The position numbers and the translations under genes are program-made. Under the pieces are notes generated by a model. It searched no databases, was not told the origin of the DNA, and was given only the letters and a program-made list of their open reading frames with translations. From Gammaproteobacteria bacterium (GTDB taxonomy: Bacteria; Pseudomonadota; Gammaproteobacteria; Steroidobacterales; PWYM01), in NCBI GenBank assembly GCA_007693855.1, contig RECU01000017.1, positions 1 through 35,444 on the forward strand: a stretch of DNA of 35,444 bases, read 5' to 3'. Shown in pieces: positions 1,666 to 33,965 of this stretch (position 1 is the stretch's first letter; the number at the start of each line of letters is the position of its first letter).

Positions 1666-1692
1666 GTGTCGGCGCAGGCGATGCAGACTTTA
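1666..1692 (-). promoter_or_regulatory. Putative FliA (sigma-28) promoter for HDOD-PAS unit
   Basis: Read on the minus strand: TAAAGTCT (1692-1685), an 11-base spacer, then GCCGACAC (1673-1666). The enterobacterial sigma-28 consensus is TAAAGTTT-N11-GCCGATAA, so the halves match 7/8 and 6/8 with exact spacing. Its first bases are also the TAA stop of the upstream kinase. It would start transcription about 75 bases before the HDOD ATG. Sequence match only. Confidence 0.5.
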
Positions 1693-4023
1693 ACCGGACG
1701 CTTCCAGCGGCGGCCCTGCTGGGCGTCGCTCGGCCGCCCCTGCCAGCCAGCGGGCGCAGACGTGGATCAGGGCCGCGCGGTCGATCGGCTTGGTTGCGTA
1801 GTCGTCACACCCCGCCGCCAGGCAACGGACCCGATCATCGGCCATTGCGTGCGCGGTCAGCGCAATGATCGGCAGGGTCATTCCCTGACGGCGAAGCTCG
1901 CGGGCCAGGCTGCAGCCATCCATTTCCGGCATCTGAATGTCGGTCACAAGCAGGTCGTAGGGGCATCCGGTCTCGTTGGCCGTCTTCAGGCACTCGAGGG
2001 CTTCATTCCCGTTGGCCGCGACCGTCACGTCGGCCCCGGCGCGGCGCAGATGAAAGGCGATGAGACGCTGGTTGTCCGGCCCGTCCTCGGCCAGCAGGAT
2101 CCGCCCGACCAGCCCGCTGCCTGCCGCCCTGCGCGGGACGTCGATGGTTGGACACGACGGCGGGCTCCAGGTGACAAGATCGCTCACCCCGACATTCCCC
2201 TCGGCCTGCAGGCGCACGTCGATCACGAACTGTGAGCCGCGTCCCGGGGCCGACCAGTCCAGACGCACGTCACCTCCAAGCAGTTGCGCGAGCCTGCGGC
2301 TGATCACCAGCCCCAGACCCGTGCCGCCGTAACTGCGAGTGACCGAACTGTCGGCCTGGCTGAACGGCTGGAACAGACGGTCGCGATGAGCCTCCGGGAT
2401 ACCCATGCCGGTGTCACGAATCCTGAACTGGAGCTGCGCCTCACCATCGGGCCGCGTCATGCTCTCCACCTGGACCTCGACCTCGCCCTCGCGGGTAAAC
2501 TTCAGTGCGTTGCCGACGATGTTGAGCAGGATCTGGCGCAGACGGGTGGGGTCGCTGAGGATCTGCTCAGGGATCTCACTCATGACATCGAAGCGGAGCC
2601 CCACCCCCGACTCCTCGGCTCGGGGCGCCAGCAGCGACTGCACATCGAGCAGGAGCTGCGGGAGGCAGATGGACACGGCTTCGACCCGCATATGACCCGC
2701 CTCGATCTTGGACAGATCGAGAATGTCGTTGATCAGCGCCAGCAGATGACGCGCATTGCTGCGTACGGTCTCCACAGCGACGAGGCTCTCGTGGTCGTCG
2801 CGATCACCGAGGCGCTCCTGGAGCAGTTCGAGGTAGCCCAGGATCGCAGTCATCGGCGTGCGAATCTCGTGACTCATGTTCGCCAGAAATTCGGACTTCG
2901 CGTGGTTGGCTGACTCGGCCCGCGTACGTGCGTCCACCAGCGCCTGCTGCAACTCACGCTGTCGCGTATTGTCCAGGTGCAGGCCCGCCATCAAGTGTGG
3001 CGTGCCATCGTCATTGAATTCGAGGGTATTGCCGATGCCCTTGATCCACACCCAGTGGCCGTCCCGATGCCGCAGGCGAAACTCGACTTCGTTCGTACTG
3101 CCCGAGGCTTCGGCCATGAGCTTGAGCGCGTGCTCGTTCTGCGCCTGGTCATCCGGATGGACCAGCGCTCGCCACGTGTCCGGCGTGACCTCGCCGAAGG
3201 ATTCCCGGGTATGGCCGAGCATGGCCAACCAACGCTCGTTGACGAACACCTCGCCGCTGTCGCAGTTCCACTCCCAGGTACCGACGTTGGTTACAGCGAC
3301 GACATTGCCGAGACGCGCGCGCAGTCGCGCCGCCTCGGCGAGGCGCAGGCGCACTTCACGCAGTGCCGGGAACAGGGCAAGCCCCACGAGCAGCATGACC
3401 ACCAGCGCGAAGACGATCCGCAGCCACCCCTCGGTGTGCTGACGCATGAGCTGCTCACTGGCCGCGTACGCGCGGTAGCGAGCGGACAGCTCCGCATGCG
3501 CCGGTGCAAGCGCCGACTTCAGGGAAAGCAGGCTGTTGATGGTGGCATGCTCATCGATGCGCTCTTCGAAATAGCCGCCAAGCACCTCCTCGAAGTCCTC
3601 CATCAGTGGCACGAGGACCGGCAGCTGACTGGCAAGCTCGTCCGGGCGGCGCGCGAGGTCCTCGCGCAGACGGTCGAAATTCGCCCGCAGCGTGACAATA
3701 TCCTCACGAAGACTCAGCCGCGCGCCGATGACATCGATCCCCGTGACCCCGAGCATCACCGACCGCGTCTCATTGCTCGCGGACAGACGTATGATGAGCA
3801 GATAACGCGCCAGACGCTCCAGAATGACGCTTTGCTGCTGACTGAGCTCGACCATCCCGTCGATCACCGCCTGGGCCTGGCGCTGCTGCGAGAACTGCTG
3901 GTTGCTCCAGCTGATCAACGCAGCAAGCAGCACCAGTAGCACGATGCCGACGAAGATCAAGCGCAGCCGCAGCTGGCCAAGATCGATGTCGACGACGCGC
4001 TCAGCAGACTTCCGGGCGCTCAC
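1690..4023 (-). CDS. Membrane hybrid histidine kinase (HK1: periplasmic sensor-PAS-HisKA-HATPase-REC)
   Basis: Start GTG 4023 overlaps the HK2 stop as GTGA, giving 777 residues; the longer open frame to 4179 lies inside HK2 and is discarded. Transmembrane segments sit at about 20-39 and 203-220, flanking a roughly 160-residue helical periplasmic sensor that I do not recognise. A PAS domain follows (about 240-355), then HisKA with the phospho-acceptor H385 in NMSHEIRTPMTAILGY. The HATPase is intact: N box NIVGNALKFT (501-510), DTGMGI (537-542), GGTGLGL (566-572). A C-terminal receiver carries AED (645-647), acceptor D695 and K745. There is no HPt domain, so it should need a separate one to pass phosphate on. 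It is the only kinase here with clear membrane segments, and is co-transcribed with soluble HK2. Confidence 0.93.
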   Translation of the reverse strand: MSARKSAERVVDIDLGQLRLRLIFVGIVLLVLLAALISWSNQQFSQQRQAQAVIDGMVELSQQQSVILERLARYLLIIRLSASNETRSVMLGVTGIDVIGARLSLREDIVTLRANFDRLREDLARRPDELASQLPVLVPLMEDFEEVLGGYFEERIDEHATINSLLSLKSALAPAHAELSARYRAYAASEQLMRQHTEGWLRIVFALVVMLLVGLALFPALREVRLRLAEAARLRARLGNVVAVTNVGTWEWNCDSGEVFVNERWLAMLGHTRESFGEVTPDTWRALVHPDDQAQNEHALKLMAEASGSTNEVEFRLRHRDGHWVWIKGIGNTLEFNDDGTPHLMAGLHLDNTRQRELQQALVDARTRAESANHAKSEFLANMSHEIRTPMTAILGYLELLQERLGDRDDHESLVAVETVRSNARHLLALINDILDLSKIEAGHMRVEAVSICLPQLLLDVQSLLAPRAEESGVGLRFDVMSEIPEQILSDPTRLRQILLNIVGNALKFTREGEVEVQVESMTRPDGEAQLQFRIRDTGMGIPEAHRDRLFQPFSQADSSVTRSYGGTGLGLVISRRLAQLLGGDVRLDWSAPGRGSQFVIDVRLQAEGNVGVSDLVTWSPPSCPTIDVPRRAAGSGLVGRILLAEDGPDNQRLIAFHLRRAGADVTVAANGNEALECLKTANETGCPYDLLVTDIQMPEMDGCSLARELRRQGMTLPIIALTAHAMADDRVRCLAAGCDDYATKPIDRAALIHVCARWLAGAAERRPAGPPLEASG

Positions 4024-6518
4024 TGGCGAGTCTCCCGGGCACGCGCAACGCTTGCCCCCTCCGAAACCGTCGACTGCGTCGGCGCCCCGACCGTGGCCAG
4101 CTGCCGTCGGCAGGCAGCCACCAGACTGCGCCGGTCGACCGGCTTGCTCAGGTAATCGTCGCATCCGGCAGCCAGACACTTCTCCCGATCCCCGGCCAGG
4201 GCATGGGCGGTGAGCGCGATGATCGGCAGGCGGCAGCCTCGCGCGCGCAGCGCCCGGGTGGCGGCGTAGCCGTCCATTTCCGGCATCTGCATGTCCATGA
4301 GCACCAGGTCCACTGCCGGATGTCCACGCTCGATCCAGGCGACCGCGCGGGCACCGTTCTCCACCAGCATCACGCGTGCACCGGCACGGCGCAGGTGATG
4401 GGCAAGCAGACGCTGATTGTCGAGCCCATCCTCCGCCACGAGAATACCGACACCCTCGAGCGGACAGTCCTGCGTGCCTGCCCCGGACGTAAGCTGGCCG
4501 GGCTCGGTCAACTGATCACCCGTCATGGTCAGCGTGGTGGTCTCCAGCCAGTCCAGGGTCTCGACCATGGGGACGCCGGCAAGCGGCCCGGTCGCCAAGG
4601 TCAAGATGAATGTACTGCCCTGCCCGGGCGCCGACTCCACCTCGATGCCCCCGCCCAGCAGCTGGGCCAGCGCACTGGAGATCCGCAGGCCCAGGCCGGT
4701 GCCGCCGTAGCGCCGACTCATCGTGCTGTCGGCCTGCGAGAACGCCTCGAAGCGCGCGACGCGCGCCCGTTGCTCGGCGTTCATGCCGATCCCCGTGTCG
4801 CGCACAACCACCTGCAGCAGGCCCGCCGGCAGGTCACAGCCAAGGCTGACGGAGACGCCACCCGCGGCGGTAAACTTGATGGCGTTGCCGACGAGGTTCA
4901 CCAGGATCTGGCGCAGGCGCAGGGGATCACTGAGGATGTTTTCTGGCACCGGCGTGCTCAACTCGACGGACAACGACAGCCCCCGGGTCCTGGCGCGCGG
5001 ACGCATCATCTCCAGCACCTGGGTCACCACCTCGACCGGCGAGGTGTCGATCTGCTCCACCTGCATCTGCCCGGCTTCGACCTTGGAGACGTCGAGCACG
5101 TCGTTGATCACGTCCAACAGGTGCTCGGCGTTGCTCTGGATGGCGCGCAGCAGCTGGGCCGGAGCGTCCGGCGCCGTGGACCCAGCTGCCGGCAACTGTT
5201 CGGCGAGCAGTTCCGTATAGCCGAGGATGGCAGCCATCGGGGTGCGGATCTCGTGGGACATGTTGGCAAGAAAGTCGCTCTTGGCGCGATTGGCGGCCTC
5301 GGCCCGCCGGACAGCCTCGTGCAGCGCCTCCTGCTGCGCCGCCCGCGCCGCGGATTCACGGCGCAGTTCGGTGACGTCAGCCATGCTGGCAACGACGCCG
5401 GCCATCGCCCCGTCCTCGCCGCGCAGGGGTTGCGTGGTGACGGAGATCCAGCGCAGTGAGCCATCCGGCAGATGCACCCCATGGACCAGCCCGCGCACAG
5501 GCGCCCCGGTCTGCAGGGTCACGCTTGCCGGATGCTCCTCCCCCGGAAAATCGCTGCCGTCGTCGCGGATCGCCCGCCAGCGGGGATCCCGCGGTGTGCG
5601 CCCCAGGATCTGGTCCCGGCTGAGACCCAGGATCCGCTCCGCCGCAGGGTTCGCCTCAATGATCGCCCCCTTGACGTTCATCAGCACGATGCCCTCGGCC
5701 ACCGCCTGGTAAATCGACTGCAGGCGCTGGTGGTCGCGTACCTGGGCGCTGATGTCGCGTACCACACCCTGCACCAGTGTCTCCCCGGCGATTTCCAGCG
5801 CACTGAGCTGCACCTCACAGTAGACCGGCGCACCGGTATCCCAGCGACGGTGCACCCATTCAAAGCGCGCGCCGCCACCCCCGAACGCCTGGTCGAGATA
5901 CGCCTGCGCCGCCTCACGGGAACACCGGCCATCGGGCTGGCGCAGGGGCGACAGATCGGAGGGATGGAGGGTCTTCAACACCTCTGTCGACGGGAGACCG
6001 AACAGCGCCAACGCGGCTGGGTTGCAGTCATACAGCCCCTCGCGGTTCATCATCATGACGGCATCGCGGGAGTTGTCATACAGGGCGCGGTAACGACGCT
6101 CGGAGCGCTGGCCCGCCGCCACCAGCCGGCGCAGCGCGGTGATGTCGCGAACCATGATCAGGCAGCCGCCCGCCGCCATGCTCCGCACGCGGGCTTCATA
6201 CCAGCGCCTGGTGGGTTGCGAGAGATCATAGATGAACCGCGAGAGGCGCCCGCCGGCACGCGCCTCGGTGATGGCCTCACGCGTCCGCCAGGCAAGCTGC
6301 GGAGCGAGCACGTCTTCCAGCGACCGACCCAGAAACGCCTCGACGGGCAGGCTCAGCCGAGCCTCGTTCCCGCCGTAGCAGGCAACGAATCGCCCCTGCG
6401 CATCCAGCACGAACAACAGGTCCGGAATGCTATCGGTCATCTCCCGGAAGATCTGCTCGTTCGCCGGACAGCCGGCGGACGCCGTCTCCTCGGAAAAGCT
6501 GGTGGTGATCTCGGGCAA
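4020..6518 (-). CDS. Soluble hybrid histidine kinase (HK2: three PAS-HisKA-HATPase-REC)
   Basis: This 832-residue kinase has no signal peptide or membrane segment, so it should sense a cytoplasmic cue. PAS domains lie at about 20-130, 138-258 and 263-388; the third contains FPGEEHPASVTL and closely resembles the second PAS of HK4. HisKA holds H422 in NMSHEIRTPMAAILGY. ATP-binding boxes are intact: NLVGNAIKFT (541-550), DTGIGM (574-579), GGTGLGL (605-611). The receiver has AED (695-697), D742 in MDMQMPEMDG and K792. There is no HPt. The start is TTG 6518, justified by a strong AAGGAG six bases upstream. The gene lies 45 bases after kdsB and overlaps HK1 by four bases. It could be read through from the lipid A operon or from a weak promoter inside the kdsB end. 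Confidence 0.94.
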   Translation of the reverse strand: MPEITTSFSEETASAGCPANEQIFREMTDSIPDLLFVLDAQGRFVACYGGNEARLSLPVEAFLGRSLEDVLAPQLAWRTREAITEARAGGRLSRFIYDLSQPTRRWYEARVRSMAAGGCLIMVRDITALRRLVAAGQRSERRYRALYDNSRDAVMMMNREGLYDCNPAALALFGLPSTEVLKTLHPSDLSPLRQPDGRCSREAAQAYLDQAFGGGGARFEWVHRRWDTGAPVYCEVQLSALEIAGETLVQGVVRDISAQVRDHQRLQSIYQAVAEGIVLMNVKGAIIEANPAAERILGLSRDQILGRTPRDPRWRAIRDDGSDFPGEEHPASVTLQTGAPVRGLVHGVHLPDGSLRWISVTTQPLRGEDGAMAGVVASMADVTELRRESAARAAQQEALHEAVRRAEAANRAKSDFLANMSHEIRTPMAAILGYTELLAEQLPAAGSTAPDAPAQLLRAIQSNAEHLLDVINDVLDVSKVEAGQMQVEQIDTSPVEVVTQVLEMMRPRARTRGLSLSVELSTPVPENILSDPLRLRQILVNLVGNAIKFTAAGGVSVSLGCDLPAGLLQVVVRDTGIGMNAEQRARVARFEAFSQADSTMSRRYGGTGLGLRISSALAQLLGGGIEVESAPGQGSTFILTLATGPLAGVPMVETLDWLETTTLTMTGDQLTEPGQLTSGAGTQDCPLEGVGILVAEDGLDNQRLLAHHLRRAGARVMLVENGARAVAWIERGHPAVDLVLMDMQMPEMDGYAATRALRARGCRLPIIALTAHALAGDREKCLAAGCDDYLSKPVDRRSLVAACRRQLATVGAPTQSTVSEGASVARARETRQ

Positions 6519-21453: not shown

Positions 21454-22230
21454 ATGGCACTATCGGGACTCTGTCTGAGCACCCTTCTGCTGACAGGCAG
21501 CCTGTCGGCCCCGATCACCCATGCGCAGACCCGCGATACACCGCTGTTCCGGGTGGAACTGGTGATCTTCGCCCACGAGCCCGGCGCGCTGGCGACCGCT
21601 GAAGATTTCCTGGCCGAGCCCCCCGCCCTGCCGCCGCCGGCACTCGAGACGATCGACCTCACGTTGAGCAGGCGCGGTGATCTGGGCCCACTGCCGGGTG
21701 AGCACGACGCCCCGCCGCTGCTGCCGGTGGAACTGCCGGCCCGGTTCCTGCCGCCGCCGCCCCTCGAACCTGTGGCCCTGCCTGCCTGGCGCCAGCTGCT
21801 CGACACCGGCGCCGGAGAGCTTGCCGGACTGTATCGGCGGCTTGCCAGCCAGCCGGGCTACCGACCCCTGATGCACCTGATCTGGGAACAACCTGGGGAG
21901 GTCGACAGGGCGACGTCGACGGTGGCGTTCGATGCCCTGCGCCTGGCGAGCCCCGAGATCATCGGCGAGGCACAGCTGTCGCGCTCGCGGTTCCTGCATC
22001 TGCAGCTTGATCTCGAGTTTCTCACCGAAGAGGCCGGCAGAGCGCTCCCCCAGCCGATCGGGTCAGGCGAGGCGCCGGAAGTACGCCTGCTGATCCCCCG
22101 GTATCGCATCGAGGAGTCCCGGCGCATGCGCAGTGGCGAGGTGCATTATTTCGATCACCCGGCCTTTGGCGTGATCGCCACGATTCAGCCCGTGGAACGG
22201 CCGACGTCCGGCGCTGCAACCACCCGCTGA
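21454..22230 (+). CDS. csiV: CsiV-family periplasmic protein
   Basis: A 258-residue exported protein. Residues 1-24 form a signal peptide (LCLSTLLLTGSLSAPITHA). The mature part begins with FRVELVIFAHEPG, the hallmark of the CsiV family; the Vibrio member binds peptidoglycan and works with a low-molecular-weight penicillin-binding protein. The family's final motif is present as VHYFDHPAFGVIATIQP. Between them is a Pro-rich stretch (about 50-105) and a region typical of this family but without recognised motifs. The position after mfd is common in gammaproteobacteria. The ribosome site is poor (GAGGA 14 bases upstream). The 3' end overlaps the convergent degenerate-GGDEF gene by 46 bases. Confidence 0.85.
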   Translation: MALSGLCLSTLLLTGSLSAPITHAQTRDTPLFRVELVIFAHEPGALATAEDFLAEPPALPPPALETIDLTLSRRGDLGPLPGEHDAPPLLPVELPARFLPPPPLEPVALPAWRQLLDTGAGELAGLYRRLASQPGYRPLMHLIWEQPGEVDRATSTVAFDALRLASPEIIGEAQLSRSRFLHLQLDLEFLTEEAGRALPQPIGSGEAPEVRLLIPRYRIEESRRMRSGEVHYFDHPAFGVIATIQPVERPTSGAATTR

Positions 22231-23123
22231 TCGCCCGCAGCCGCCGCCTGCCGGGCAGCTGCCAGCCAGTCCTCGATGTCCTCACCGGCCGCCGGGACGC
22301 CGGCCCGCGCCCCGCCGGTGACCTGGACGTGGCGTGCCCCTGGTGCCCTTGGGTTGTGAATACCGAGAGCCGCCACCGCAGCTTCGATGCGAGCCAGATG
22401 CGCTGCGACGGCCTCCGCCGTCATGTCCTCGGCCAGCGCCGCGAAAGTACTGTCACCCACCCGGGCGACGAGGTCGGTGGTCCGGCGCAGGCACGAGGCG
22501 ATCCCGTGGGCGACCAGGCGCAGGCAGTTGTTGGCTGCGTTGCGTCCGTAAGTCTCCACGTAGACGTCGAAGGCCTCGACCTCGAACACCATGAGCGCAA
22601 GCTGGCGATCGTGGCGCCGGGCCCCGGACACCTGGTGGCGGCAGAATTCCACGAACCAGCCGCGATCGAGCATGCCGCTGACGGCGTCGTCGCGCAGCAG
22701 ACCGCGTTGGCGCGCCGCGACGCCCTCGGCACGCGCGCACTCGAGCAGCCAACCCGAAGGCGCTTCGCCCCCCTCACCGACCAGGGGGGTGACCCGCAGC
22801 CGCCAGCGCACCGGCTGCCCGAGCGCATCCTGGCCATCGACCACCAGCGCCTGGCCCTCGGTGGCGTCCGTGGCGCGAAGCGCGGCGAACAGTGCCTCCG
22901 GGCGACTCAGCCAAGCCTGGGGGGCAGCGGTGAAGGCCTCCGCGTCGAAGCCGGTGAGCCGCAAAAACGCCGGGTTCCAGCATAGTGGCCTCTCCGCGGC
23001 TGCCGCCGGACCGAGCACCAGCACCGGCGTATGCAGAGCCTCGATCACCTGTCGCGCGAGCTCGGGCGTCAACGCATCGGCCGGTGGCGTGAGCGGGCCC
23101 GCGTTCATCTGCTCAGCCTGCAT
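22185..23123 (-). CDS. PAS protein with degenerate GGDEF domain
   Basis: About 312 residues. A PAS-like domain (about 25-130, with HTPVLVLGP and WNPAFLRLTGFDAEAF) is followed by a GGDEF-fold domain (about 145-305). Active diguanylate cyclases make c-di-GMP from two GTP, but here the signature is GDSTF (223-227) in place of GG[DE]EF, the metal-binding Asp positions read FEVEAF rather than D-x-D, and the usual ND and GD residues read ET and AN. It is therefore very likely not a cyclase and may bind GTP or c-di-GMP, or act as a scaffold. ATG 23123 overlaps the HK3 stop by 11 bases; ATG 23108 is possible. It is likely the output or partner of HK3. No membrane segment is seen. Confidence 0.85.
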   Translation of the reverse strand: MQAEQMNAGPLTPPADALTPELARQVIEALHTPVLVLGPAAAAERPLCWNPAFLRLTGFDAEAFTAAPQAWLSRPEALFAALRATDATEGQALVVDGQDALGQPVRWRLRVTPLVGEGGEAPSGWLLECARAEGVAARQRGLLRDDAVSGMLDRGWFVEFCRHQVSGARRHDRQLALMVFEVEAFDVYVETYGRNAANNCLRLVAHGIASCLRRTTDLVARVGDSTFAALAEDMTAEAVAAHLARIEAAVAALGIHNPRAPGARHVQVTGGARAGVPAAGEDIEDWLAAARQAAAAGDQRVVAAPDVGRSTG

Positions 23124-25953
23124 GTCGCACCCCAGCGTGGCCACGTGCCAGCCGTTCACAGGTCGCCAGCAGCTGCATCACCTTGACCGGCTTGCTGAGA
23201 TAGTCATCACAGCCCGCCTCAAGACAGCGTTCCCGGTCGCCACTCATGGCATGCGCCGTCAGCGCCACGATCGGCGCCGTCCAACCCGCACCGCGCAGCG
23301 CCCGGGTGGCGCTGTAGCCGTCCATCACCGGCATCTGCATGTCCATGAGAATCAGGTCCGGGCTAACCCCGCCGAGCGTCACCGTCTCCACCGCCTCGCG
23401 GCCATTCTCGGCCAGCGACACGCGGGCACCCGCGCGCGCCAGGTGATGGCGGATCAGTCGCTGGTTGTCCACACCGTCCTCAACCAGCAGGATCGCCAGG
23501 CCAGCAAGCCGAGGCCCCTCGGCGGCAGGGTACGCCACAACCGTGCTGGGGGCCGATGCCCCGATCACCCCGGCCGGATGCATCGTCACTCCGGTCACAT
23601 CACCCGTATTCACCGTAACAGTGAAGGTACTGCCCACCCCCTCGCGCGAGGACAGCGTCAGCTCGCCCCCGAGCTTGCGCGCCAGGGCTTGAGAGATCCT
23701 GAGGCCGAGGCCGGTGCCACCATAGCGTCGCGCCATGCTGGCGTCGCCCTGGGTGAAGGCGTCGAAACGTGCGATGCGGGCACAGGCCTCTGGACTCATC
23801 CCGATCCCCGTGTCCACGATCCGGAAGGCCAGCCAGCGGGAACGCGCGTCGTGCAGCACGTGAGCGGTGACCTCACCGGCCTCGGTGAACTTGATGGCGT
23901 TACCGACCAGGTTCAGGAGAATCTGACGTAATCGCACCGGGTCCGACTGGATGGTCTCGGGCACTTCCGAGTCGCACACCAGGCGCAGGGTCAACCCCTT
24001 GGCCGTGGCTCGGGACCGAAGGAGTTGCAGCACGCCCTCGACCAGCGCCAGCGGCTGGACGGGCAGCTGTTCGATCTGCAACTCGCCGGCCTCGATCTTG
24101 GAGACATCGAGGATGTCATTCAGTACGGTCAGCAGGTGCTCGGCATTGCGGCGGATGGTATCGATGGCCGGCTGGAGCTCGCTGGGGGCCGGTGCGTCGG
24201 TCTCGGAGAGCAGCTCCGCATACCCGAGAATCGCTGTCATCGGCGTGCGAATCTCGTGGCTCATATTGGCCAGGAACTCGCTTTTCGCCTGGCTCGCCGC
24301 TGCCGCCTGGCCCATGGCCTCGCGCAGCGCCTGGATGTCGATATTCACCCCGATCAGCCGCCGCGGCGAGCCGTCCGGACGCCACTCGATGACCCGCCCG
24401 ACGTCGCGGATCCAGCGCCACTGTCCCTCGGCGGTCTTGACCCTGCGTTCGTTCACATAGCCTGGCGAGCCAAGATAGGTATGGCGTTCCATGGCGAGCT
24501 CCATCCCGGGACGGTCTTCCGGATGACACTCCTCATAGCCGTCATCAAGAGGGATCCGTCCCTCCCGCGGCGGCCAGCCCCGCAGCGCGAACCAGTGCTC
24601 CGAACAATAGGCGCTGCGCAGGTCCAGATCGGCATCCCAAAGGCCGATGCGGCCGGTTTCCATGGCCAGCGACAGGCGCTCCTCGGCATGCTCTAGCGAG
24701 CGCTGCTTGAGTTCGAGATCCCGCGCCTGCTCGCGCAGTTCCTGCTCCAGGCGCTTCTTGGCGGTGATGTCGAATCTCAGCGTGATATAGCGCTCAGGGC
24801 GCCCATCGCCATCGAGCTGGGGGATATGCGTGGAGTCGACCCAGAACAGCTCGCCGCCGCGGGCCCGGTTGCAGATTTCACCCCGCCATACGCGACCGGC
24901 CATGAGATCGCCCCACATGCCCTGCCAGAATTCGCGGTGGTGGTACCCGGAGCTGAACAGCCGGTGATCATGACCCAGCACTTCCTCACGTCGGTAACCG
25001 CTGAGGCGACAGAAGCCCTCGTTGACATCGACGATCCGGCCGCGGCGATCGGTCACCGAGTACAGCATGTGCCGGCCAATGGCGCTACGCAGAGCATCGA
25101 GCTCACGCAGCGCGCTCTCGTCGAGATTGCGGTGCAGCGACAGGATGACGCTGCGGCCATCCAGCACAATCCGGCGCGCGGAGATCTCGACCTCGAACGC
25201 ACCCACTTCAGGCGCTGTGTGGCGTTGCCGGAAGCGCAGATGCTCGCCGGTCTCGAGCCGGGCCATGCGAAACTCCACTTCGCGCGCACCTTCCGGCGTT
25301 TCCAGATCACGCATGAGGCGTCCGCGGGTGCGATCAGGATCGAGCGCATACAGGCGGGTGGCTGCGGAATTGACCCAGAGGAGCCGCCCGCGTTCCTCGC
25401 CCTCCATCCCAATGAGATAGGCCGCATCCGGCAGGCGTTCCAGCACCTCCTGGTAGGCCAGCTCGCGGCCGCGTGAGGCCAGTTCATGCTCGACCAAGGC
25501 GCCGAATTCCGCGAGTGTTCGAAGCGCCTCGGCATCGAGATCACGAGGCTGGACGTCAAGCACGCACAGCGTGCCGACTCGCTGGCCCTCGGGCGAGCGT
25601 AACGGCTGCCCGGCGTAGAAGCGGAAGCCGTTCTCCATGGTCACCAGCGGCGCGGTGGCGAAACGCGGATCGGTGCGGGCATCCGGTACAACCAGTGTGC
25701 CCGGCTCCGCCAGCGCGATCTCGCAGAACGTATTGTCCCGCGGCACCTCCCGGGCCGACAGGCCGTGACGCGACTTGAACCAGACGCGCTCGGCATCTAC
25801 CAGACTGATCAGGGCAATCGGGACGTCAAGTACGCGCGCCACCAGGCGGGTCAGCCGGTCGAAGCGCTCCTCGTCGGGGGTGTCGAGCAGTTCCAGACGA
25901 CGCAGCGCCGCGAGGCGAGCCTGCTCGTCTACACCGTTCCCACAATGCCCCAT
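23113..25953 (-). CDS. Soluble hybrid histidine kinase (HK3: GAF-three PAS-HisKA-HATPase-REC)
   Basis: A 946-residue cytoplasmic kinase (GTG 25956 is one codon upstream; AAGGGG lies about ten bases before the ATG). The N-terminal GAF domain (about 12-160, ELLDTPDEERFDRLTRLVA ... GTLCVLDVQPRDL) is of the type found before PAS-kinases. PAS domains follow at about 168-285, 288-403 and 425-548. HisKA carries H566 in NMSHEIRTPMTAILGY; ATP-binding boxes NLVGNAIKFT, DTGIGM and GGTGLGL are intact. The receiver has VED (823-825), D871 in MDMQMPVMDG and K921. There is no HPt and no membrane segment. The gene overlaps the degenerate-GGDEF gene and sits behind a terminator of the nagZ group, so it should have its own promoter. 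Confidence 0.94.
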   Translation of the reverse strand: MGHCGNGVDEQARLAALRRLELLDTPDEERFDRLTRLVARVLDVPIALISLVDAERVWFKSRHGLSAREVPRDNTFCEIALAEPGTLVVPDARTDPRFATAPLVTMENGFRFYAGQPLRSPEGQRVGTLCVLDVQPRDLDAEALRTLAEFGALVEHELASRGRELAYQEVLERLPDAAYLIGMEGEERGRLLWVNSAATRLYALDPDRTRGRLMRDLETPEGAREVEFRMARLETGEHLRFRQRHTAPEVGAFEVEISARRIVLDGRSVILSLHRNLDESALRELDALRSAIGRHMLYSVTDRRGRIVDVNEGFCRLSGYRREEVLGHDHRLFSSGYHHREFWQGMWGDLMAGRVWRGEICNRARGGELFWVDSTHIPQLDGDGRPERYITLRFDITAKKRLEQELREQARDLELKQRSLEHAEERLSLAMETGRIGLWDADLDLRSAYCSEHWFALRGWPPREGRIPLDDGYEECHPEDRPGMELAMERHTYLGSPGYVNERRVKTAEGQWRWIRDVGRVIEWRPDGSPRRLIGVNIDIQALREAMGQAAAASQAKSEFLANMSHEIRTPMTAILGYAELLSETDAPAPSELQPAIDTIRRNAEHLLTVLNDILDVSKIEAGELQIEQLPVQPLALVEGVLQLLRSRATAKGLTLRLVCDSEVPETIQSDPVRLRQILLNLVGNAIKFTEAGEVTAHVLHDARSRWLAFRIVDTGIGMSPEACARIARFDAFTQGDASMARRYGGTGLGLRISQALARKLGGELTLSSREGVGSTFTVTVNTGDVTGVTMHPAGVIGASAPSTVVAYPAAEGPRLAGLAILLVEDGVDNQRLIRHHLARAGARVSLAENGREAVETVTLGGVSPDLILMDMQMPVMDGYSATRALRGAGWTAPIVALTAHAMSGDRERCLEAGCDDYLSKPVKVMQLLATCERLARGHAGVRHAG

Positions 25954-26003
25954 CACGTCTGCCCCTTACCGTCGGACGGCGACATACCGCCCGGTCCCCA
26001 GGG

Positions 26004-29036: not shown

Positions 29037-29076
29037 AGTCCCGAGTGCTGCTCAAGATCTGTCTCAGGGAGTGCCC

Positions 29077-32000
29077 GTGGGGGACATGTCCAACCTCATC
29101 ACCCGTCAACCGGCCCTGTCCGTCAAGGAACTGATCGCCGGTCTCAAGCCCCGGCCCACAGCACTAGTGGAGGCCGATGCCCAGGGCGTGATCTGCTGGT
29201 GCAATGCCGCGTGGGAACGCGCCAGCGGCTGGACGGCAACAGCGCTCGCCGGCACGCCCCTGCGTCCACTGCTTGCGCAACGCTACGAGCACTCGCCGGA
29301 GCTCGAGAGTCTGATTGCCGCGCTCGATGCGGGTCAAGCCGCAGGTGCCACGGTCGAACTCACCCAGCGCGACACGGGCCACCAATGGGCGGAGGTGGAA
29401 CTCGAGCCCAGGGCAGACGGCGGCTGGCTGGTGCTTGAGCGCGATGTCACCGAGCGCCTGGCGAGCGAGCATCGATTACAGGCGTTATGGCGGGCAGGCA
29501 CGGAGGGGATCATCGAGTTCGCCGCCGACGGCACTGTGGTGGCCTGCAATGACGCCGCGCAGACCATCCTCAAGCTCTCAGCCGAGGCGCTGATCGGCCG
29601 CAAGCCTACGGATCCCGACTGGCAGGCGATTCGCGAAGATGGCAGTCCATTCCCCGGCGAAGAACACGCCGCGAGCATCACGCTGCGCACCGGCGAGGCG
29701 GTCAACGACTGTATCGTCGGGATTCCTGCAGCGCGCGGGCGTATCCGCTGGGTCAGCTCCTCGACCCGCGCACTACACGACACGCAGGGTGTACTGACCG
29801 GAGCCATTGCCGTGGTCCGTGACGTCACCCGTCAACGGGAGGCCACGACCCGGCTGAGCACGCTTATCCGCGGGGCAGGCGTGGGCACCTGGGAGGTTGA
29901 CCTCGCCAGCGGTCGGGCCACTCGCGACGCCGTGTGGGGCGAGATGCTCGGCCTCGCTGTCGAGGAGATCCCCGATTCGATCGACGGCTGGCAGCGGCTG
30001 GTGCACCCGGAGGACGCGCCGCGTGTCGCCAGTGCCCGCGATGCGCATCTGAGCGGAGCAATGCCCGAGTACCGCTGCGAGTACCGGTTGCGTCGTGCCG
30101 ACGGTCAATGGGCCTGGATCCTCGATGCCGGCCAGGTCATCGAGCGGGATTTTTCCGGTCACCCCAGGCGTATCGCTGGAGTACATATCGACATCTCCGA
30201 ATTGCGCGAGGCGCATGCCCAGGTCACCCGCAGCAGTCGACGACTCGCCGAACAGCGCAGCGAGTTGCAGGCCATTATCGACGCCATTCCAGCGCTGGTG
30301 TTCTACAAGGATGCCGCCAACCGGATCCTCGATCTGAACCGCACTGCGGCGCAGGCCGTCGGACTGCCGGTCGAGGACGTTCGCGGCCATCGTGTCGAGG
30401 AACTGTTTCCACCCGAAGATGCCGGGAAATGCCTGGCAGACGATCAGGCCGTCTTGCGCACGGGCCGACCAAGCCTCGGTATCCTCGAACGCTACCGCGA
30501 TGCCAAGGGCAGGTATCGGAGTCTGCGCACGGACAAGATCCCCCTGCGTGGGCCGGACGGGCACTGTGATCGCCTGGTCTCGGTCGCGGTCGATGTCAGT
30601 GAGCAGCTCGCGCGCGAACAGCGTATTGAACAGGACCTCGCGGAGGCTCAGGCCGCCAGCCTCGCCAAGAGTCGCTTCCTGGAAAGTCTGGGACATGAAA
30701 TCCGTACGGCGTTGACGGCGATTCTCGGCTATGCCGACATGCTCGGCGACCCCGCCACAGGCCCCGTTGGTAGCGCGCGTGAGGACACCGCCGCGGTGCT
30801 GCGCCGCGCAGGCGAGCGACTGCTCACCACCATCAACGACATCCTCGATCTCTCACAGCTCGAAGCCGGCACACTCGCGCTGGAAACGGTCGACATGTCG
30901 CTGGTCGACCTGGTACGCGAGATCGAGCTGTCGATGCGCCCTCGCCTCTCGGCAACGGGCACTGGGCTTCGCCTGGGGCTGCTCACGCCGATCCCGGAGC
31001 GCGTGGTCAGCGCCCCCGCCCGTCTTCGCCAGATTCTCGTCAAGCTGATCGATCACGCCTTGAAAGTCAGCCTGGGCGGTGAAATCGCCATCGAATTGAG
31101 CCGTGAGGGCACCCCGAGAGGTGAGCGATTACTCGTTCAGATTGGCGCCGACACCCCCGGGATGGCCCCTGCGGACGCGGAGGACCCGTTCGAGCCGATA
31201 CCACACGCCCACGGGGCCACCCCCCCCCACCATGACACCACACGGCTCGGATTGATGACTGCCCGTCGGCTGGCCCGGCTCCTCGGTGGTGAGCTGCGTC
31301 TGCGGACGCAGGACGGTGCAGGCCAGGCCGGCTTCCTGCTCGAGCTGCCGCTGGTCGCCAGCATCGGTACCAGTGTGGTCGAGACGCTGCCAGAGCACCG
31401 TCCGCCCCCCCCCTCCCGGAGCCCCAGTGCACGCCCCCTCGAGGGTCTGGACGTGCTGGTGGTCGAGGACGGCGAGGACAATCGCCGGCTGATCTGCCAC
31501 TACCTCGAGAGTGCCGGCGCCCGCGTCTCAGATGTCGCCAACGGCGCCGCCGCCCTCGAACAACTTTCCCGACGGCACCACCAGGGCCGGCCGCCGGGCC
31601 TGGTCGTCAGCGATATCGACATGCCCGTGATGGACGGCTATCAGCTCGCGCGCGAGGCGGCACGGATGGCCATCGCCCCGCCCATGCTGGCGCTGACGGC
31701 GCACGCCCTGCCGGAGGACCGGGCCCGTTGCGAGGCCGCCGGATTCGACGCCTACCTGATCAAGCCGATAGACCGCCAGGCACTGCTGGACACCTGCCTT
31801 GCCCTGGTTCGCGATATCAGTCCCGTGAACATGGTCACGGCGAGCGTGCACGAAAGTGGAGAACATGACGCCATGTTGAGTGAATTTGCCGATGATCCCG
31901 ACATGCAGCCGCTGCTCGCCGAATTCGTCGGCGAGCTCCCAGAGCGTGTCAGCCACCTGAGTGTCCTGGCAGCCGCTGGCGAGTACAGTGAGTTAGGGCG

Positions 32001-32208
32001 GCTCGCCCACCAGCTCAAGGGCGCCGGTGGAGGCTACGGCTATCCCGCGATCACCGAGGCGGCCGCGCTCCTGGAGCGCGCGGCACGCGAGCCGGCCGTC
32101 GAGGCGACCGCAGTGGCGGATGCTCTCGCCAGCCTGGCGGACGTCTGCGATGCGGCGGCCATTGCGCTGGACATCCCGGCAGCGGCCCAAGTCGGGAGCG
32201 TACGGTGA
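29077..32208 (+). CDS. Hybrid histidine kinase-like protein with degenerate ATPase (HK4: four PAS-HisKA-dead HATPase-REC-HPt)
   Basis: About 1043 residues, soluble. GTG 29077 follows AGGGAG by five bases; ATG 29086 is the alternative. Four PAS domains lie at about 22-128, 130-255, 262-380 and 392-515. The HisKA helix keeps the phospho-acceptor His (H540) in LGHEIRTALTAILGY, although the usual Pro after HEIRT is Ala. The ATP-binding domain is degraded at all three boxes: N box KLIDHALKVS instead of NLVGNAIKFT, GADTPGM instead of RDTGIGM, and DTTRLGL instead of GGTGLGL. The frame is open throughout and both flanks align, so it is not a frameshift artefact. The receiver keeps VED, D846 and K896; the C-terminal HPt keeps LAHQLKGAGGGYGYP with H978. 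It probably relays rather than makes phosphate. It overlaps the c-di-GMP gene by GTGA. Confidence 0.93.
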   Translation: MGDMSNLITRQPALSVKELIAGLKPRPTALVEADAQGVICWCNAAWERASGWTATALAGTPLRPLLAQRYEHSPELESLIAALDAGQAAGATVELTQRDTGHQWAEVELEPRADGGWLVLERDVTERLASEHRLQALWRAGTEGIIEFAADGTVVACNDAAQTILKLSAEALIGRKPTDPDWQAIREDGSPFPGEEHAASITLRTGEAVNDCIVGIPAARGRIRWVSSSTRALHDTQGVLTGAIAVVRDVTRQREATTRLSTLIRGAGVGTWEVDLASGRATRDAVWGEMLGLAVEEIPDSIDGWQRLVHPEDAPRVASARDAHLSGAMPEYRCEYRLRRADGQWAWILDAGQVIERDFSGHPRRIAGVHIDISELREAHAQVTRSSRRLAEQRSELQAIIDAIPALVFYKDAANRILDLNRTAAQAVGLPVEDVRGHRVEELFPPEDAGKCLADDQAVLRTGRPSLGILERYRDAKGRYRSLRTDKIPLRGPDGHCDRLVSVAVDVSEQLAREQRIEQDLAEAQAASLAKSRFLESLGHEIRTALTAILGYADMLGDPATGPVGSAREDTAAVLRRAGERLLTTINDILDLSQLEAGTLALETVDMSLVDLVREIELSMRPRLSATGTGLRLGLLTPIPERVVSAPARLRQILVKLIDHALKVSLGGEIAIELSREGTPRGERLLVQIGADTPGMAPADAEDPFEPIPHAHGATPPHHDTTRLGLMTARRLARLLGGELRLRTQDGAGQAGFLLELPLVASIGTSVVETLPEHRPPPPSRSPSARPLEGLDVLVVEDGEDNRRLICHYLESAGARVSDVANGAAALEQLSRRHHQGRPPGLVVSDIDMPVMDGYQLAREAARMAIAPPMLALTAHALPEDRARCEAAGFDAYLIKPIDRQALLDTCLALVRDISPVNMVTASVHESGEHDAMLSEFADDPDMQPLLAEFVGELPERVSHLSVLAAAGEYSELGRLAHQLKGAGGGYGYPAITEAAALLERAAREPAVEATAVADALASLADVCDAAAIALDIPAAAQVGSVR

Positions 32209-33965
32209 CCGGATGTGCGAAGGCCACTCATCAGGTGCTGCTGGTGGATGACGACCGCACCATCCAGCGCCTGACCGAGGCCTTTCTCAAACCGCTGGAT
32301 GTAGACTGCGAATTCGCCGGATGCGGCGCTGAGGCCTTCGAGTCCCTGGCGCGCAGGCTGCCAGACCTGATCCTCCTCGACCACGAGATGCCGGGCGAGT
32401 CGGGCCTGGAGATCCTGGAGCGGCTGAAGGCAGACCCTATCCTCGCCCAGATCCCGGTCATCTACGCCACCGGCACCGAGAAGGAAACAGTCATCAGCCG
32501 CTGCTTCGAGGCCGGCGCCAACGACTATATCCAGAAACCGATCCGCCGCCCCGAGCTCGTCGCCCGGGTCCAGTCGGTGCTGGAGCGCCAGCGCATGATG
32601 CGCGAACTCTGGACGAATGCACGCACCGACAGCCTGACCGGACTGCCCAACCGCCTGCTGCTGCAGGAGACGCTGGGCCGGGCCATCGAGCGCGCCCACC
32701 ACGACCCGAATTACCACTTCGCCGTGCTGTTTCTCGACTTTGATCGGTTCAAAATGATCAACGACAGCCTCGGACACGAGATCGGCGACATGCTGCTCCA
32801 ACAGATCGCCAGCCGGCTGCGGAGAAATCTCCGTAGCGAGGATGCGATCGTGCGCGACAGTCAGATGACCACACTGTCACGCCTCGGCGGGGATGAATTC
32901 GTCATCCTGCTTGGGGACATCCCGGACGAAGATGCCGCAGCCGCGGTGGCCACCCGTCTGCTCAACGTCCTCAACCGCCCCTATTCTCTGGCGGGCAACA
33001 CCGTGAATTCCACCGCCAGCATTGGTGTGGTCTGCAGTGATCGTGTTTACCGGACTGCCGACGAAATGCTGCGGGATGCCGACATCGCGATGTACGAAGC
33101 CAAGGCCCGCGGCAAGGCCTGCCATGTGGTCTTCGACCCTTGCATGCACGCCGCCGTGGTCGAGCGCCACCGCATCGAGAGTGATCTTCGCCATGCGGTG
33201 GGCACAGACCAGATCCACCTTATGTATCAGCCGATCTTCTCCATCGAGGATGGCGGCGTGATCGGCATGGAGGCGTTGGCGCGCTGGGCGCATCCTGAGC
33301 TGGGGCCCATACCCCCCGACCGGTTCATTCCCGTCGCCGAGGAAACTGGCCTGATTATCCCGCTGGGTGAACAGGTACTGCATGCCGCATGCAGGCAGTT
33401 CCAGCAGTGGCGGCGTCAGCATGCGGGGCTCAAGTACGTCAGTGTCAACGTATCGCCCGCACAGCTGGAAATCGGCGGCTTCGCCACACTGGTCCGGGAT
33501 ATCGTGATCCAGCACGGAATGACTCCGGATGAACTGCAGCTGGAGGTCACCGAGTCGATGATCATGAGCCGCCCCGAGACGGCGGTGACCCTGCTGCAGG
33601 AACTCAAAGCCCTGGGTATCCGCCTGGCCATGGACGACTTTGGCACCGGCTACTCATCGCTGTCCTGTCTGCACCGCTTCCCGTTCGACGTCATCAAGAT
33701 CGACCGCTCTTTCGTACAGGAGCTTAACGGCGAGCGTAGCGAGTTTGTCGCCCTGGTACACGCCATCGTGAACCTCGCCTATAACCTGGGCATGGAATGC
33801 GTCGCGGAGGGCATCGAGACCCACGAACAGGTTGCCGTCCTGCTGGCGGTCGACTGTCTCTACGGTCAAGGCTATCTGCTGGGTCGGCCTGCGGCCGCTG
33901 ACGGAGTCTTTCCCCCATCCTGGTACAATGCCGCGCCCGCGGTCGCCTCGCAGCTGAGTGCCTGA
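32205..33965 (+). CDS. Response regulator with GGDEF and EAL domains (c-di-GMP turnover)
   Basis: A 586-residue three-domain protein. The receiver (about 9-128) has DDD (15-17), acceptor D59 and K111. The GGDEF domain (about 138-310) has the intact signature RLGGDEF (226-232) and FLDFDRFKMINDSLGHEIGD, so cyclase activity is possible. The EAL domain (about 320-565) keeps EALAR (356-360), NVSPAQL, EVTES, MDDFGTGYSSL, KIDRSF, EGIET and GQGYLLGRP, so c-di-GMP hydrolysis is also likely. A seven-to-eight-residue insertion (about 215-224) separates an RSED resembling the inhibitory RxxD site from GGDEF. Start GTG 32205 overlaps the HK4 stop as GTGA. Phosphorylation by the HK4 HPt domain would set its net direction; motAB lies just downstream in the opposite orientation. 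Confidence 0.95.
   Translation: MTGCAKATHQVLLVDDDRTIQRLTEAFLKPLDVDCEFAGCGAEAFESLARRLPDLILLDHEMPGESGLEILERLKADPILAQIPVIYATGTEKETVISRCFEAGANDYIQKPIRRPELVARVQSVLERQRMMRELWTNARTDSLTGLPNRLLLQETLGRAIERAHHDPNYHFAVLFLDFDRFKMINDSLGHEIGDMLLQQIASRLRRNLRSEDAIVRDSQMTTLSRLGGDEFVILLGDIPDEDAAAAVATRLLNVLNRPYSLAGNTVNSTASIGVVCSDRVYRTADEMLRDADIAMYEAKARGKACHVVFDPCMHAAVVERHRIESDLRHAVGTDQIHLMYQPIFSIEDGGVIGMEALARWAHPELGPIPPDRFIPVAEETGLIIPLGEQVLHAACRQFQQWRRQHAGLKYVSVNVSPAQLEIGGFATLVRDIVIQHGMTPDELQLEVTESMIMSRPETAVTLLQELKALGIRLAMDDFGTGYSSLSCLHRFPFDVIKIDRSFVQELNGERSEFVALVHAIVNLAYNLGMECVAEGIETHEQVAVLLAVDCLYGQGYLLGRPAAADGVFPPSWYNAAPAVASQLSA

Follow-up and report, generated by a model that had tools for sequence, protein, structure and literature searches.

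The DNA analysed here (the window, 35,444 nucleotides of a gammaproteobacterial contig) encodes several hybrid histidine kinases, one of which, HK4, raises the question of what a sensor kinase can still do when its nucleotide-binding boxes are lost and its phosphotransfer residues are all retained. HK4 is encoded on the forward strand (29071..32208) by an open reading frame of 1045 residues with zero internal stops, and its Pfam domains are arranged as PASx4-HisKA-(degenerate) HATPase-REC-HPt. Translation may start at a GTG two codons downstream (29077), as suggested by the orthologue in a related genome (G001, see below) when the starts were compared by eye.

The HisKA/DHp domain of HK4 (30664..30870, residues 532-600) contains the motif GHEIRTALTAI with the phospho-acceptor His542 (30694-30696), and retains a phosphatase-type HExxT motif with Ala instead of Pro after the Thr. 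The receiver (REC) domain (31453..31791, residues 795-907) carries the phospho-acceptor Asp848 (31612-31614), the acidic pair Glu799/Asp800, Thr876 and Lys898, and the HPt domain (31912..32115, residues 948-1015) carries His980 (32008-32010), so that His542, Asp848, Lys898 and His980 are all present, as a first, sequence-only reading had stated. The HATPase_c/CA domain (31015..31353, residues 649-761) is predicted to keep its fold and has lost its nucleotide boxes: the Asn pair of the N-box, the DxGxG pattern of G1 and the glycines of G2 are missing from what is now KLIDHALK (31042..31065), GADTPGM (31144..31164) and DTTRLGL (31234..31254), all within 31010-31300 on the forward strand. In HK1 to HK3 the same three boxes are intact, and their HATPase_c scores are 98, 91 and 89 bits, respectively. 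The boxes of HK4 are thus broken as claimed, but the wording that all of them are destroyed is a little strong, since the domain still scores 46.2 bits against a Pfam cut-off of 26.4 and its 'LGL' and 'LLGG' stretches are kept. Because the domain remains above this cut-off, HK4-like proteins are easily annotated as active sensor kinases. Judged from its boxes, HK4 itself most likely does not use ATP.

The loss is confined largely to one domain. In an alignment with 47 other kinases (a subset of 80 other hits; 33 were removed by hand as near-duplicates, e.g. L059, as second kinases from one locus or for their lower scores, and HK1-HK3 are not included), 24 CA and 15 DHp columns with at least 85% conservation were scored. 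HK4 keeps 13 of the 24 CA columns and its orthologues in G001, G004 and G003 keep 16, 11 and 14, while 44 of the 47 other kinases keep 20-24, the remaining three being L047 (13), L082 (18) and L062 (13). As HK4 keeps 12 of the 15 DHp columns, it is the nucleotide site that has been affected selectively, in an open frame, as the sequence-only reading had proposed, and to an extent that exceeds chance expectation. Two further substitutions, which that reading had not noticed, lie in the H-box (30691-30723), where SHEIRTP has become GHEIRTA in all four orthologues, with Ser replaced by Gly before the His and Pro by Ala after HExxT. This Pro is present in 47/47 of the other aligned kinases.

Conservation of the defect was analysed in five genomes of the genus, i.e. 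the source genome G000 and G001-G004. Orthologues of HK4 could be identified in three of the four other genomes (G001, 76% identical; G004, 75%; G003, 68%), those of G003 and G004 with the N-terminus cut by a contig end, and none was found in G002, a genome that is 87% complete. In G000, G001, G003 and G004, respectively, the first Asn of the N-box is replaced by K/K/R/K and the second by H/Y/H/H; in G2, R/Q/R/Q stand in place of the Gly that precedes LGL. These are the only losses common to all four: the Gly two places upstream in G2 is kept only in G001 (DGTQLGL), and G1 is broken in three of the four, but is a normal-looking RDSGPGL in G001. Hence the claim of box loss holds across the orthologues for both N-box Asn residues and the pre-LGL Gly, and not for G1. 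None of the four HATPase domains is intact, all frames are open, and there are 0 gaps in 121 CA columns. A recent local defect is ruled out, as the orthologues share the box loss, and a frameshift or pseudogene is ruled out by the open frames, the lack of gaps in the CA domain and dN/dS values below 1.

Relatives outside the genus indicate the probable direction of change. Within the order, the DHp-HPt part was searched against 196 genomes (E up to 1e-60) and the REC-HPt part against 396 genomes (E up to 1e-25), and in each search only the best few candidates per genome were scored. Matches outside the genus were found in G126, G034, G043 and G135, with intact boxes in 4/4, and no damaged-box relative was seen elsewhere in the order among these best few candidates per genome. 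The strongest homologue, from another family of the same order (G126), has the architecture PAS-HisKA-HATPase (94 bits)-REC-HPt, intact boxes (LLNLVGNAVKFT, DTGIGM and GGTGLGL) and is followed by a gene for a REC-GGDEF-EAL protein that is 56% identical to the one next to HK4. The homologue of G034 (31% identical) consists of HisKA-HATPase-REC and an HPt-like tail. Since an intact homologue with the same REC-GGDEF-EAL neighbour occurs in another family, the loss of kinase activity probably dates to the ancestor of the genus; the simplest reading of these sequences is that the ancestral kinase was active and fell silent on the stem leading to the genus.

Tree analysis did not provide a sister paralogue. 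In a tree of the full core (57 rows) HK4, with a stem length of 1.33, is placed beside HK1 (95/92, from a bootstrap that had not settled); in a tree without the CA columns (35 rows) this pairing is not resolved and a clade of HK4 and the G126 homologue is not rejected (p-AU 0.445). No sister paralogue of HK4 is therefore claimed. Other hybrid kinases with damaged boxes were also encountered. The hybrids L062 (6022-6729) and L059 (6022-6726), from two Aquisalinus genomes, retain the HisKA His and the REC domain but lack the second Asn of the N-box and the glycines of G2, their G2 remnants (DATDLGL and DANDLGL) resembling the DATQLGL of one HK4 orthologue; they probably represent an independent pseudokinase. 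In the Pirellulales hybrid L047 (6034-6753), probably another independent case, the HisKA His is replaced (SEEISEP), the N-box and G1 are degenerate, and a REC domain is present.

The gene that follows HK4 (32205..33965, forward strand) overlaps its stop by 4 bases and encodes a REC-GGDEF-EAL protein with both GGDEF and EAL motifs present, which is the presumed output of HK4. This gene order is kept in G001, G003 and G004, and is followed by motB and then motA in G001 and G003; in G004 motB is found about 3 kb on, at the contig end. The other hybrid kinases of the window, HK1 (1690..4179), HK2 (4020..6518) and the GAF/PAS hybrid kinase HK3 (23113..25956), are all encoded on the reverse strand and combine intact boxes with a REC domain, without an HPt domain. 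They are proposed here as donors to HK4, by analogy with known relays. On the same strand as HK3, and overlapping its 3' end, lies the gene for a GGDEF-domain protein (22185-23159), which is a possible further output of the kinase network. An HK1 fragment on a G004 contig (L019, C145) is 99% identical to HK1 of the window, the other HK1-like fragment of G004 being 74% identical; this contig is probably cross-binned.

The question of which HPt domain could serve the HPt-less hybrids was addressed by a census of PF01627 matches in G000, with CheA-type proteins identified by reading translations and not via a family search. Eight stretches were found: four in the ChpA-like protein of C47, one each in CheA of C109 and C8, one in HK4, and one in C73 that lies inside a HATPase match and, at 15.3 bits, below the cut-off. 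HK4 therefore holds the only HPt domain of this genome that is over the cut-off outside CheA-type proteins. Hybrids of G000 were defined as open reading frames with both a HATPase and a REC match, and boxes were read for the hybrids among 27 HATPase matches; C78, whose translation resembles the C-terminal portion of the ChpA-like protein, was set aside. The six other hybrids (HK1-3, C104, C79 and C73) have intact boxes, and no PF01627 match over the cut-off was found in any of them. In G000 there are thus HPt-less hybrids with no other HPt for them. The census was extended to G001, where five stretches were found, two in the ChpA-like protein, one in each of two CheA proteins and one in HK4. 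A relay hub is favoured over a mere scaffold because HK4 holds the only HPt of the genome that is not of the CheA type.

Co-occurrence of HK4 with HPt-less hybrids could be followed in six draft genomes (G000-G004 and G126, of which G002 is 87% and G126 92% complete). In G002 neither HK4 nor HPt-less hybrids of the HK1-3 kind were found, and a homologue of the REC-GGDEF-EAL protein is present (54%). A search of G126 at E up to 1e-20 gave no HPt-less hybrid of the HK2-core family: two other matches to the HK2 core end before a REC domain, and the HPt kinase is intact. G003 has one further HPt match (C133, 31.9 bits), which may or may not belong to a CheA-type protein. G004 has a second module (L228:1511-6270, C218), comprising a divergent HPt-less hybrid kinase with intact boxes, an HPt frame and, adjoining the latter, a paralogue of the REC-GGDEF-EAL protein, 67% identical to that of the window. 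The mechanical open reading frame of this HPt is 307 residues long and reaches back into the upstream region of the divergent kinase gene; with a start at the GTG at L228:4187 the product would have 107 residues (Pfam, 40.7 bits). At the same gene position, this module thus appears to encode its HPt as a protein of its own, separate from any kinase.

Likeness between receiver domains was compared over 32 positions, active-site residues included, which we take to be the likely HPt-docking face, chosen after complex structures. On this face HK1, HK2 and HK3 are identical to HK4 at 21, 22 and 21 of the 32 positions, and outside it at 40, 34 and 35 of 86. The corresponding docking-face values are 23/32 for C104, 18/32 for C79, 7/32 for C73 and 10/32 for the REC-GGDEF-EAL protein. 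Since the G126 homologue (21/32) and a planctomycete hybrid (22/32) score like HK1-3, this likeness marks the family and not a pairing.

We propose, with somewhat more than even confidence, that HK4 is a hybrid pseudokinase, fixed in the genus ancestor, that serves as an HPt hub between HPt-less kinases and the REC-GGDEF-EAL protein, and perhaps as a phosphate drain. HK4 would not use ATP, yet would retain a folded DHp-CA core. The HPt-less hybrids (HK1-HK3 and others elsewhere in the genome) would autophosphorylate and pass the phosphate to their own REC domains, from which it would reach His980 of HK4 and then the REC-GGDEF-EAL protein of the overlapping next gene, i.e. a relay H1-D1 (HK1-3) to H2 (HK4) to D2 (REC-GGDEF-EAL). 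The donors, the direction of flow and the drain we infer. A pure HPt hub would have no need for a conserved His542 and Asp848, so that the simple hub model is incomplete; as these residues and HExxT are also conserved, a second role is expected, most likely that of a drain. Control of the hub would then fall to the four PAS domains, the DHp domain with its HExxT motif and the REC domain, which most likely drain the relay in the manner of RetS, by acting as a phosphatase or as a phosphate sink. Against the hub stand the scattered donor genes, with HK1 and HK2 about 23-25 kb and HK3 about 3 kb from HK4, the further HPt matches of G003 and G004, the small basis of six draft genomes for the co-occurrence, and the G1 box of G001, which looks usable.

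The predicted structure of the core bears on a different use that it may have. An AlphaFold model of residues 522-768 of HK4 has a kinase fold (mean pLDDT 86.2, pTM 0.81), and the closest solved structures are those of RetS (Z 21.3) and GacS (Z 21.1), which are tied, followed by DivL (Z 20.0). In the model the stretch from G1 to G2 (692-721) has pLDDT block means of 68, 69 and 55 and no helix, and the CA domain is predicted to fold, with relaxation mainly around the nucleotide site. A RetS-like function deduced from the fold ranking was discarded, because the active GacS ties with RetS. HK4 could nevertheless be a regulator of the RetS or DivL kind, whose dead core would heterodimerise with the cores of HK1-3. 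Either the CA domain of the partner would phosphorylate His542 in trans, after which the phosphate would pass to Asp848, to His980 and to the output, or HK4 would merely modulate the activity of its partner. We regard this as rather unlikely. It accounts for the retention of His542 and Asp848, fits these structural matches and the identity of the DHp block GHEIRTALTAILGYA in all four orthologues, and has a precedent in the RetS-GacS interaction (PMC5992135). However, the match to RetS is no better than that to GacS, and LadS uses the HPt of GacS without heterodimers (PMC4866733).

The rate of evolution bears on whether the CA domain is simply eroding. Relative to G000, the CA domain of HK4 is only 52% (G001), 44% (G003) and 55% (G004) identical. 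In its DHp, REC and HPt domains identity is 76-91%, 79-88% and 79-87%, respectively, and in the CA domains of HK1-HK3 orthologues it is 67-88%. Between G000 and G001, 63 of 121 CA positions are identical in HK4 versus 286 of 359 in HK1-3 (Fisher p 1.5e-8), while DHp and REC together show 167/187 versus 498/564 (p 0.79); between G000 and G003 the CA values are 53/121 versus 169/240 for HK1-2 (p 1.3e-6), all these tests treating sites as independent. Of the HK4 domains compared, CA alone evolves fast. Its dN/dS by NG86 is 0.38-0.57 (six pairs), compared to 0.09-0.30 for the CA domains of HK1-3 (seven pairs) and to 0.08-0.23 for REC, 0.06-0.15 for HPt (six pairs each), 0.04-0.21 for DHp and 0.08-0.16 for the fourth PAS domain of HK4; by YN00 it is 0.27-0.33 in 3/6 pairs. 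These values are rough, because dS frequently approaches or exceeds 1.

Slow decay of a CA domain that is no longer needed, with HK4 kept for its HPt alone and the rest as a passenger, would explain why the CA values are several times those of REC, HPt and DHp, and why no two species share the same G1 remnant. The DHp and fourth PAS domains are still constrained, however; the CA domain is free of gaps in four open frames, 30 of its 121 positions are invariant in the four orthologues, with many lying in the LRQ, LGL and LLGG stretches, and at the former N-box Asn positions all four have residues of like kind (K/R, H/Y). Decay is therefore judged improbable, and the original suggestion of a pseudokinase relay or scaffold, not decay, is supported by a loss that all four orthologues share. 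That HK4 is still a kinase with unusual nucleotide binding, e.g. with other residues coordinating Mg, is highly improbable, for in spite of its HATPase_c score, its confidently modelled fold (mean pLDDT 86) and the RDSGPGL of G001, both N-box Asn residues and the pre-LGL Gly are gone in 4/4, G1 is broken in three, and the G1-G2 segment is modelled without a helix at pLDDT 55-69.

If the proposed HPt hub is real, HK4 offers a polarised example of how such hubs originate, with an intact relative in the order and silencing in one genus. It would also be a clean test case for the role, be it relay, drain or scaffold, of a hybrid whose kinase is dead but whose His, Asp and HPt are intact. We tentatively suggest, as a possibility that falls clearly short of even odds, that a self-contained relay kinase became a hub with many inputs: its kinase-REC part would have been duplicated into HPt-less sensors, after which the kinase of the HPt-bearing copy was silenced, leaving the PAS, DHp and REC domains as an independent drain and turning the dead CA domain into an allosteric module that possibly binds a ligand and acts on the c-di-GMP output.

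To our knowledge RetS has no HPt domain, RcsD no phosphorylatable REC domain and DivL no REC/HPt relay, whereas HK4 carries both REC and HPt. In PhyT, ChpT and Spo0B the DHp-type histidine itself is the phosphotransferase, whereas HK4 has a separate HPt and a REC domain. Like HK4, RetS of P. aeruginosa combines a degenerate HATPase domain, without G-boxes, with a retained H-box that has HExxT, and with a REC domain (PMC5992135). In RetS the HExxT motif has phosphatase activity and a REC domain takes the phosphate of the partner (PMC5992135). The same paper names a REC2, so that RetS, unlike HK4, has more than one REC domain. Unlike that of RetS, the HK4 gene overlaps the gene of a c-di-GMP regulator. 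HK4 is likened to RetS by type, i.e. by the state of its domains and motifs and by its predicted fold.

Lending of an HPt domain to an HPt-less hybrid, as proposed for HK4, is described in PMC4866733 for GacS as donor to LadS in P. aeruginosa, where the relay is H1(LadS)-D1(LadS)-H2(GacS)-D2(GacA), and has a parallel in CblT as donor to CblS in Burkholderia. GacS, however, is an active kinase and HK4 is predicted to be dead. In enterobacteria RcsD carries a pseudo-kinase domain and an HPt, the latter linking the hybrid RcsC to RcsB, and lacks the conserved HisKA His (PMC3762810). HK4 likewise has an HPt on a chain whose kinase is dead to judge from its sequence, but keeps His542 and the REC domain. 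RcsD was reported to be labelled by ATP despite its pseudo-kinase domain (PMC3762810), which calls for caution in declaring a kinase dead from sequence alone. PhyT, the ATPase domain of which is degenerated, obtains its phosphate from SdrG, which is in turn served by several kinases, and PhyT, ChpT and Spo0B are thought to be phosphotransferases derived by degeneration from histidine kinases (PMC5898713); thus, a protein with a degenerate ATPase domain can be a phosphotransferase in a multi-kinase pathway. Finally, DivL of Caulobacter is a pseudokinase with a DHp-CA fold that steers another kinase, and differs from HK4 in that Tyr550 replaces the His (PMC4211667). Within the open-access literature, as far as available, with subscription papers mostly outside its scope, no described protein was found that combines the features of HK4. 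Each feature has a precedent in RetS, GacS/LadS, RcsD, PhyT or DivL, and it is their combination that would be new. By analogy, HK4 may unite in a single chain the dead core and phosphatase motif of RetS with the HPt that GacS or RcsD supplies to another kinase.
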